A DNA stretch of 64,000 nt from Parvularcula lutaonensis. GTDB lineage: Bacteria > Pseudomonadota > Alphaproteobacteria > Caulobacterales > Parvularculaceae. The position numbers and the translations under genes were made by a program. Below are positions 32,919 to 35,648 of the stretch, one piece after another. The notes beneath the pieces are model-generated. The model worked only from the letters and a program-made list of their open reading frames with translations, had not been told where the DNA came from and did no database searches. The stretch's first letter is position 1. The number at the start of each line of letters is the position of its first letter. The DNA is taken from positions 1,247,501 through 1,311,500 of the forward strand of contig NZ_BMXU01000001.1 in NCBI RefSeq assembly GCF_014651915.1. Direction: 5' to 3'.

Positions 32919-35648
32919 ATGACCCACTCTGCCGAGACCATCGCCGAACACGGCCTGACGCCCGAAGAATACGAACGCTTCAAGACCTCGATCGGACGCG
33001 AGCCGAGCCTTCTCGAGCTCGGCATCGTCTCGGTCATGTGGTCGGAGCACTGCTCCTACAAATCCTCCCGTCGGCACCTGAAGACCCTGCCCACCGAGGG
33101 GCCCCAGGTCATCCACGGCCCCGGGGAGAACGCGGGCGTGGTCGATATCGGCGACGGCCAGGCAGCCATCTTCAAGATGGAGAGCCACAATCACCCGAGC
33201 TTCATCGAGCCCTACCAGGGCGCGGCGACCGGCGTTGGCGGCATCATGCGGGATGTCTTCACCATGGGTGCGCGGCCGGTGGCGCTGCTGAACGCTCTGC
33301 GCTTTGGTGCCATCGATCATCCGAAGACGAAGCACCTCCTCTCCGGCGTGGTCGCGGGCATTGGCGGCTACGGCAACTGCATGGGCGTGCCCACGGTGGG
33401 CGGCGAGACGGGCTTTGATCGCCGCTACAACGGCAACATCCTCGTCAATGCCATGTGCGTCGGCATCGCGGACCAGGACAAGATCTTCCTCTCCGCCGCC
33501 AAGGGCGCGGGCAATCCCGTCGTCTACGTCGGATCGAAGACCGGCCGCGACGGCATCCACGGCGCCACCATGGCCTCGGCAGAGTTCGATGAAGCCTCCG
33601 AAGAGAAACGCCCCACGGTGCAGGTCGGCGACCCCTTCATGGAGAAACTCCTGCTCGAGGCCTGTCTCGAATTGATGGCAGAGGATGCGATCATCGCGAT
33701 CCAGGACATGGGGGCGGCGGGTCTCACATCGTCCTCGGTCGAGATGGCCTCCGGCGGCCTCGCGGCTGGCGAAGGCGGTATCCACCTCAAGCTCGATGAC
33801 GTGCCCCAGCGCGAGGAGGGCATGACGGCCTATGAGATGATGCTCTCCGAAAGCCAGGAGCGTATGCTGATGGTCCTTAAGCCTGGCGCTGAGGAGAAAG
33901 CCCGGGCGATCTTCGACAAGTGGGATGTCGACTTCGCCGTCATCGGTCACACCACCGATACCGGCCGCCTGGTGATCGAGCACAAGGGAGAGATCGAATG
34001 CGACCTCCCTCTCGGCCCCCTCGCCGATGAAGCGCCAAACTATGACCGTCCGCAGGCGGAGCTCAAGCCACCTGCGCCGCTGGACGACCCGGTGGCCAGC
34101 TTGACCGACCTGCAGGTGTCGTTGACCAAGGGCGATCAGGACCTCGAACAGGTTGCGGAAGCCCTGATCGACGAAACCCTGAGCGGCAGGGACGGCATCG
34201 GAGCTGTCGGTGTCTCCGAAGGCAAGGGCACGCTGACCATCCATGCGCGGACCGCCTTCGGCGCCGATGCAAGCGTTCTCGGCGAGTTCAGGAAGGCTGC
34301 CGAAAACCTCGAAGCGGCGGGCGCTGTTGCGAAGGTCCGCATCGAGGAAGAGACGGTCGAGGTGAACCTTGCCGATTCACCCGGCGGCGACACGATCCTG
34401 CTGGCGCTCCGCAAGCTGATGGCTTCGCCGGATCTGTGTTCGCGCCGCTGGATCACTCAGCAGTACGACAGCACGGTCATGGCCGATACGCTGATTACCG
34501 GCGGGGATGCCTCGGTTGTGCGGGTACACGGAACGAACAAGGCCCTCGGCGTCACCGCCGACTGCACGCCGCGCTACTGCGCCGTCGACCCCTATGAAGG
34601 CGGCAAACAGGCCGTGGCCGAAGCCTGCCGGAACCTCTCGGCCGTGGGCGCAGAGCCGCTGGCCATCACCAACTGCCTCAATTTCGGCAATCCGGAGAAG
34701 CCCGAGATCATGGCGGGCTTCGTCGGCTGTATCCGCGGCCTCGGTGATGCGGCGAAGGCGCTCGGCGCACCGGTGGTCTCTGGCAATGTCTCTCTCTATA
34801 ACGAGACCGACGGCTCACCCATTCCGCATACGCCTGCGATTGGCGCGGTGGGCATTCTCCGTGACCTCACCAAGCGTGCGACAATCTCAGGCATGCAGAG
34901 CGGGGACGCCCTCATCGCGGTGGGCGTGACCCGCGGCCATCTGGGCCAGTCGCTTTATATGCGGAACCTCTTCGGCATCGAAGAAGGCGCTCCGCCCACC
35001 GTCGATCTCGAGCTCGAAAAGACCACTGGTGATTTCATTCGTAAGCAGATCGAGGAGGCCACGGTCTCAGCCGTCCACGATGTCTCCGATGGCGGTCTCC
35101 TTGTGGCAGCCTCTGAAATGTGCCTCGCCAGCGGCATGGGCCTCGCCCTCACCACTGCCGTCAGTGCAAGGAAGGCAGCCTTCTGGTTCGGTGAAGACCA
35201 GGCCCGCTATCTCGTAGCAGTTCCTGCAGAGAACGCGGATAACTTCGTCCTGAAAGCCGCCATGGCAGGGCTGCAGGCCAGCCGTCTTGGTATCTTCGGT
35301 GGTGACGATATCATCCTCGATGGGCAGGAACGCATCAGCGTCACCAGCCTCGCCGCCAGCCACGAAGCCACAATCCCCGAACTCTACCGCCTCGAAGAGG
35401 ACCGCCTCATGCCGATGAAAGCATCCGAAATCAAAGAGATGGTCCTGGCGGCCATGCCTGACGCCGAGATCGAGATCGAAGACCTCGCAGGCGATGGCGA
35501 CCACTACCGTGCACGAATCGTCTCCGCAGCCTTCAATGGCCTCAACCGCGTGCAGCAGCACCAGATGGTTTACCGCGCCCTCGGCGGCAAGATGGGCGAC
35601 ACGCTGCATGCCCTGGCGTTGGAGACCGTGGCGAAGCCGAAGGGCTAA
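32919..35648 (+). CDS. purL: PurL-BolA fusion: FGAM synthase II with BolA tail
   Basis: A 909-residue protein. Residues 1-387 and about 488-830 are small-type PurL, the ATP-dependent synthetase that makes formylglycinamidine ribotide with PurQ and Pur[67 protein letters not shown] and VHDVSDGGL are all present. Between them is an extra ~100-residue block (about 388-487) that normal PurL lacks. From residue 831 the frame runs without a stop into a complete BolA-type domain ([45 protein letters not shown]), usually a separate gene just after purL in this class. No frameshift was seen. Confidence 0.9.
35397..35411 (+). promoter_or_regulatory. Possible internal ribosome site for free BolA
   Basis: AGAGGA lies seven bases before an in-frame ATG (35409) that exactly starts the BolA-like part of the fusion. 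It could be the relic of the ancestral bolA start, or still yield a separate 79-residue protein. Confidence 0.45.

Follow-up and report, generated by a model that had tools for sequence, protein, structure and literature searches.

The locus considered here raised the question of whether a long open reading frame of Parvularcula lutaonensis, which runs from the purine enzyme PurL into a BolA-type domain, is a true gene fusion and, if so, which proteins it yields. The frame lies on the plus strand at positions 32919–35648 of the 64,000-nucleotide stretch of DNA that was analysed (the window). It starts with ATG and encodes 909 amino acids followed by a stop, with no stop inside. Both parts were recognized by profiles with scores above the curated cut-offs. 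The fused protein scored 992.8 bits with the NCBIfam PurL equivalog NF002290 (cut-off 648) and 917.1 bits with the PurL equivalog TIGR01736 (cut-off 525.75). The Pfam BolA profile PF01722 matched residues 858–905 of the whole 909-residue protein with 50.7 bits (cut-off 25.7) and the last 79 residues alone with 56.3 bits. Among solved structures, the PurL part came closest to PurL 3viu, and residues 835–905 came closest to YrbA 5nfk. The BolA domain, which profile and structure match assign to the YrbA/BolA_H type, occupies positions 35409–35648 (+; 79 amino acids with the stop). The protein is a genuine fusion in which PurL is joined by a short linker to a complete BolA domain that begins at Met831. 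The preliminary description of this DNA had read the locus as a single frame with a 79-residue BolA domain starting at residue 831, and the profile matches bore this out. The product mass of ~97 kDa given there has to be corrected, since the computed mass of PurL-BolA is 96.0 kDa; that of the last 79 residues is 8.6 kDa.

Related genomes were surveyed for the same fusion, as had been proposed. Matches were found in 61 of the 62 Parvularculaceae genomes searched, and the junction was read base by base in 52 genomes representing 8 of the 9 genera of the family. The junction was fused and open in all 52 genomes, and the ATG of BolA was kept in every one of them. In three others (G062, G078 and G084), alignments crossed the junction without a stop, the stretch in G062 being largely N. 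Seven of the 62 genomes had no sequence over the junction. Two of these seven, G013 and G032, listed as 98% complete, gave no PurL match, yet PurS was present in both. Because the same open junction occurs in all 52 genomes, a sequencing error that removed a stop near 35400 is excluded.

Outside Parvularculaceae, the fusion was found in none of 77 loci (L036–L112); two loci of the family whose sequence stops short of the junction, L029 and L035, were excluded from the counts. Two separate genes in related strains, which the preliminary description had named as a result that would speak against its reading, therefore exist outside the family only, and inside it all 52 junctions are fused. In the class sample, 320 of 385 genomes gave a match, and among the matches listed, only the genome of the window has BolA in a frame longer than 645 residues. 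A candidate second, independent fusion in G047, from another family of the same order, with an apparent open frame of 857, was rejected because the DNA (L133) has a stop after PurL. No report of a PurL-BolA fusion was found in the available text of the literature searched. A tree of BolA sequences (74 rows and 78 columns, few for a tree) did not place the fused BolAs in one clade and implied 4 changes (one change in 0% of 200 bootstrap trees), and its starred branches force no more than one change.

A separate bolA gene was present in 43 of the 77 loci outside the family; in the DNA retrieved for the other 34, BolA gave no match, 2 of these loci being cut by a contig end. The distance from the purL stop to a separate bolA is 0–166 nt in 36 of these loci and 174–2,615 nt in the other 7, and bolA is in the frame of purL in 18. 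The presence of bolA near purL is thus frequent in the alphaproteobacterial loci surveyed, as the preliminary description had stated. In the window, the linker comprises residues 824–830 (35388–35408, +; borders set by us), which junction comparison suggests to be the intergenic spacer that once lay between purL and bolA. Linkers of the family, measured from the usual LPxYM-like end of PurL to the ATG, were 6–11 residues long in 37 of the 41 junctions parsed (longest, 25; 47 junctions were scripted and 6 remained unparsed). A linker of the size of a spacer is what stop loss would give, the spacer becoming the linker. In the ancestral state, bolA was likely a separate gene behind purL. Loss of the purL stop, an event that we infer, fits both the separate state outside the family and the linker length, in line with the earlier proposal. 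The linker is variable, with a mean identity of 34% at the amino acid level (31 sequences) and 41% at the nucleotide level (52 sequences), versus a mean pairwise identity of 77% for the BolA domain in the same 31 fused sequences.

The internal ATG (Met831; 35409–35411, +), kept throughout the 52 family junctions, is the proposed start of a free BolA. It aligns exactly with the start ATG of 40 of the 43 separate bolA genes, where the start was defined as the closest ATG to the aligned position in a range of −12 to +6 codons (offset 0 in these 40). The protein from this ATG begins with MPM, MPI or MAM in the 52 family junctions, and 36 of the 43 separate BolA proteins begin with M-P-M or M-A-M. 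The window carries a Shine-Dalgarno (SD)-like stretch, GAAGAGGA (35394–35401, +), with a GAGG core 8 nt from the internal ATG, and its three nearest relatives have AGGAGG at this site. Across the 52 sequences (effective number 20.3), linker conservation peaked at −13 to −8 in a GGAG-like block and C prevailed at −2 and −1; the other positions carried little information.

Pairing was calculated with a standard anti-SD sequence rather than with one taken from the 16S RNA of this genome. The mean at the internal start was −8.1 kcal/mol, with values of −5 or lower in 51 of 52 junctions. Averaged by genus, the energy was −7.5, versus −4.4 after synonymous recoding, and none of 500 recoded sets was as strong. 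When one random member per genus was drawn, the fraction of recodings as strong had a median of 0.000 and a 90th percentile of 0.002. Other in-frame Met codons, used as a control, had a mean of −2.5 kcal/mol (n = 939), and 1.6% of them reached the foreground median. The starts of separate bolA genes, used as a positive control, had a mean of −6.9 kcal/mol (n = 43).

If PurL-BolA were the only product, the internal ATG and the purine-rich stretch before it would be remnants or parts of the protein linker, in which Met, acidic or Lys residues are tolerable. Part of the SD signal is indeed carried by amino acid choice (Lys-Glu, Glu-Glu), for which a protein-level reason could apply. The SD of the window itself is among the weaker ones (GAGG core, −5.8 kcal/mol; 77% of synonymous recodings of its own linker are as strong), and an SD is almost absent at the internal start of L028 and of its near-copy L034, which has the same BolA sequence as L028/G035. 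However, the ATG is kept in all 52 genomes while the preceding linker shares just 41% of its nucleotides, the SD signal at the genus level exceeds that of synonymous recoding, and the internal SD matches that of separate bolA genes in strength. A fusion with this single product is therefore unlikely. The family-wide conservation of the bolA start codon and SD makes it probable that free BolA is produced as well, and the linker looks like a former intergenic spacer that keeps the ribosome-binding site of bolA. The earlier view that the fusion ties BolA to PurL is incomplete, because these signals point to free BolA too. The chosen purL starts, for their part, have a weaker SD (mean −3.0, n = 24 family loci) than the internal bolA start (mean −8.2, 30 loci), starts being taken as chosen; with purL starts this weak, SD strength is no rule for starts here.

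The properties of the BolA domain bear on what its attachment to PurL might do. Judged by its sequence, the fused BolA is of the YrbA type and keeps both histidines that serve as metal or Fe-S ligands. His862 (35502–35504, +) and His897 (35607–35609, +), which correspond to BolA His32 and His67, were invariant in all 31 aligned fused BolAs. In YrbA, the two histidines bind metal, and the same residues are used for the cluster in BolA-glutaredoxin pairs (PMC7538681, available text). A monothiol glutaredoxin scored above the cut-off in 57 of the 61 family genomes searched, including that of the window, where its gene lies on another contig. The background offered in the preliminary description, in which BolA works with monothiol glutaredoxins, is supported by these histidines and by the presence of that gene. 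The search of family genomes revealed no free close copy of the fused BolA, and hits other than the fused gene and its contig fragments did not exceed 30.5 bits; the genome of the window has one other BolA, in a frame of 107 residues.

It has been suggested from this background that the fusion supplies Fe-S to a purine enzyme or puts it under redox control. This reading is compatible with two products, so its probability is not additive with those of the other readings. In its favour are the invariance of both ligand histidines in 31 of 31 sequences and the binding of metals by Sinorhizobium meliloti YrbA, which pairs with a monothiol glutaredoxin (PMC7538681, available text). A purF gene lies in the window at 56765–58270 (+), 21 kb downstream of the fusion. 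By eye, its product keeps only 2 of the 4 Fe-S cluster cysteine positions of Bacillus subtilis PurF, so this PurF probably has no Fe-S cluster. A link of Fe-S to purine synthesis through PurF was rejected as unsupported on this ground. PurL is not known to be an Fe-S enzyme. The earlier suggestion of an Fe-S or redox partner acting on a purine enzyme thus gained no support, and we regard a fusion serving this purpose as rather unlikely.

Whether the join between PurL and BolA is itself kept was judged from the linkers. The 12 codons that precede the ATG are free of in-frame stops in all 52 family linkers, whereas 34% of shuffled linkers have one. The other two frames contain stops in 40 and 15 of the 52 linkers, although some of these arise from conserved PurL codons and do not give a neutral rate. 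If the 8 genera were independent, linkers would all be open by chance with a frequency of ~3% (0.66^8), which is rough owing to relatedness; changes in linker length keep the frame, and this pushes the value lower still. Selection appears to hold the join. It might be supposed that free BolA alone matters and that read-through from PurL is tolerated noise with no function of its own, since bolA retains its own start signal and since the old gene neighbourhood is broken in the genome of the window, with the glutaredoxin gene on another contig. A stop in the linker would then restore the ancestral state, yet no junction has acquired one and length changes have preserved the frame, which makes this supposition improbable. 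Cleavage of PurL-BolA within the linker to release PurL and BolA is very improbable because, although the linker is short and variable with pLDDT below 50 at residues 825–831, no cleavage motif shared among the linkers was seen by eye and the SD and ATG would be left unexplained.

The PurL part is not the plain, full small-type PurL of the preliminary description. Both PurL profiles break at residues ~396–401 because a domain of ~95 residues is inserted. The N-terminal half (residues 1–389; 32919–34085, +) comprises the FGAR-AT linker and the AIRS N and C domains according to the profiles and the model. The insert (residues 390–485; 34086–34373, +) was delimited by alignment, AlphaFold2 modelling and fold comparison, and the C-terminal half (residues 490–823, borders set by us; 34386–35387, +) by profiles and structure matches. 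The insert was present in all 31 aligned fused proteins with a mean identity of 38%, versus 83% and 71% for the PurL halves. The distance between two PurL motifs was 146 residues, versus 49–54 residues in the other PurLs where the pair could be located (six; four more were unparsed). No such insert was seen in the other PurLs measured among the 77 non-family loci, of which L036 and L073 gave no match to the motif. The segment lengths of L036, L068 and L073 looked intermediate, and that of L068 proved to be a normal 54 residues. A profile of the insert searched against 142 genomes of the class gave a clear match only in the genome of the window.

AlphaFold2 predicted a strand-helix-strand-strand-helix-strand order at residues 392–483, with pLDDT of ~86–94 in the full model and a mean of 81.8 for the insert alone. 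The predicted fold is ferredoxin-like according to fold comparison. Comparable ferredoxin-like domains occur within other enzymes, for example amidohydrolases and peptidases of the M20 kind, 1ysj among them. As the identity is just 7–14% and the fold is common, no function follows from this likeness. The insert was also considered as a PurS domain and rejected: hhalign comparison with a profile built from just three PurS sequences gave a probability of 0.1% and an E-value of 0.48. PurS was not among the matches listed in a Pfam scan of 29 inserts. A separate PurS gene was found in the genome of the window (C1:438034-438267) and in 56 of the 61 genomes searched. The fused PurL fits the small type (FGAM synthase II) on the basis of its profiles and the separate PurS, not of a short interdomain linker. 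The insert and the BolA tail co-occur. Each could have arisen only once, on one branch, so their co-occurrence need not mean a functional link.

It is probable that the gene gives two products, PurL-BolA (96 kDa) and free BolA (8.6 kDa), with the fused form being used; that both are made and both used is what we infer from sequence comparison. According to the proposed mechanism, the purL stop would have been lost in the ancestor of Parvularculaceae, so that ribosomes translating purL would continue across the old spacer and through the yrbA-type bolA behind it, yielding PurL-BolA. The SD and ATG of bolA, now inside the frame, would have been kept by selection, and ribosomes starting at this ATG would make free BolA, which would pair with the monothiol glutaredoxin of the cell as it does elsewhere. 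In the fused form, one BolA would sit on the PurL-PurQ-PurS complex and thereby bring glutaredoxin, a metal or a [2Fe-2S] cluster to it. That the fused BolA lets iron or the redox state act on PurL is speculative and, in our estimate, doubtful. A wider proposal is equally tentative. One gene might supply an Fe-S or metal adaptor both free and welded to PurL, in a ratio set by read-through versus internal initiation, with the insert as a docking or regulatory element and with FGAM synthase answering to glutaredoxin-bound iron or redox state.

We know of no accepted reason for the linkage of purL and bolA. The single polypeptide, in which selection apparently maintains the junction as well as the original start signal, suggests a role for each of the two forms. 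The fused gene makes the linkage testable, since a purine-linked role of BolA becomes separable from its general one. Gene calling that reports just the 909-residue product would miss the proposed free BolA.

The fusion of BolA to other proteins is not confined to PurL, and an internal bacterial start is not known to be part of the fusions with SufE or glutaredoxin. Plant SufE1 is SufE with a C-terminal BolA domain and can pair with a monothiol glutaredoxin (PMC10051749, available text), and BolA-glutaredoxin fusions are mentioned in the available text of PMC6558291. In these proteins BolA is a domain of another protein, as in PurL-BolA, but their partners belong to Fe-S or glutaredoxin systems, whereas here the partner belongs to purine synthesis. 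The YrbA of S. meliloti is of the BolA_H type with His32 and His67 at the same numbers as in the fused BolA counted from Met831, but it is free-standing (PMC7538681, available text). Internal in-frame starts give shorter products in AerR of Rhodobacter capsulatus (PMC6199135, available text) and SpaO (PMC13059759, available text). In both, one frame has two products by internal initiation, as proposed for purL-bolA. The short product of purL-bolA differs in that it would come from a once separate gene that retains its original ribosome-binding site. The purL-bolA gene of Parvularculaceae is a domain fusion, probably combined with internal initiation and hence with two products.

The separate purL and yrbA-type bolA genes of other alphaproteobacteria have the same order and a start aligned with Met831, but they encode two proteins split by a stop, and their PurL has no insert. 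In three genomes of this kind (G052, G056 and G060), a glutaredoxin match starts ~100–125 nt after the BolA match. In Parvularculaceae, such a match was found ~1 kb after the fused gene in G012 and G020 and 5–9 kb from it in G014, G019, G026, G031 and G034.
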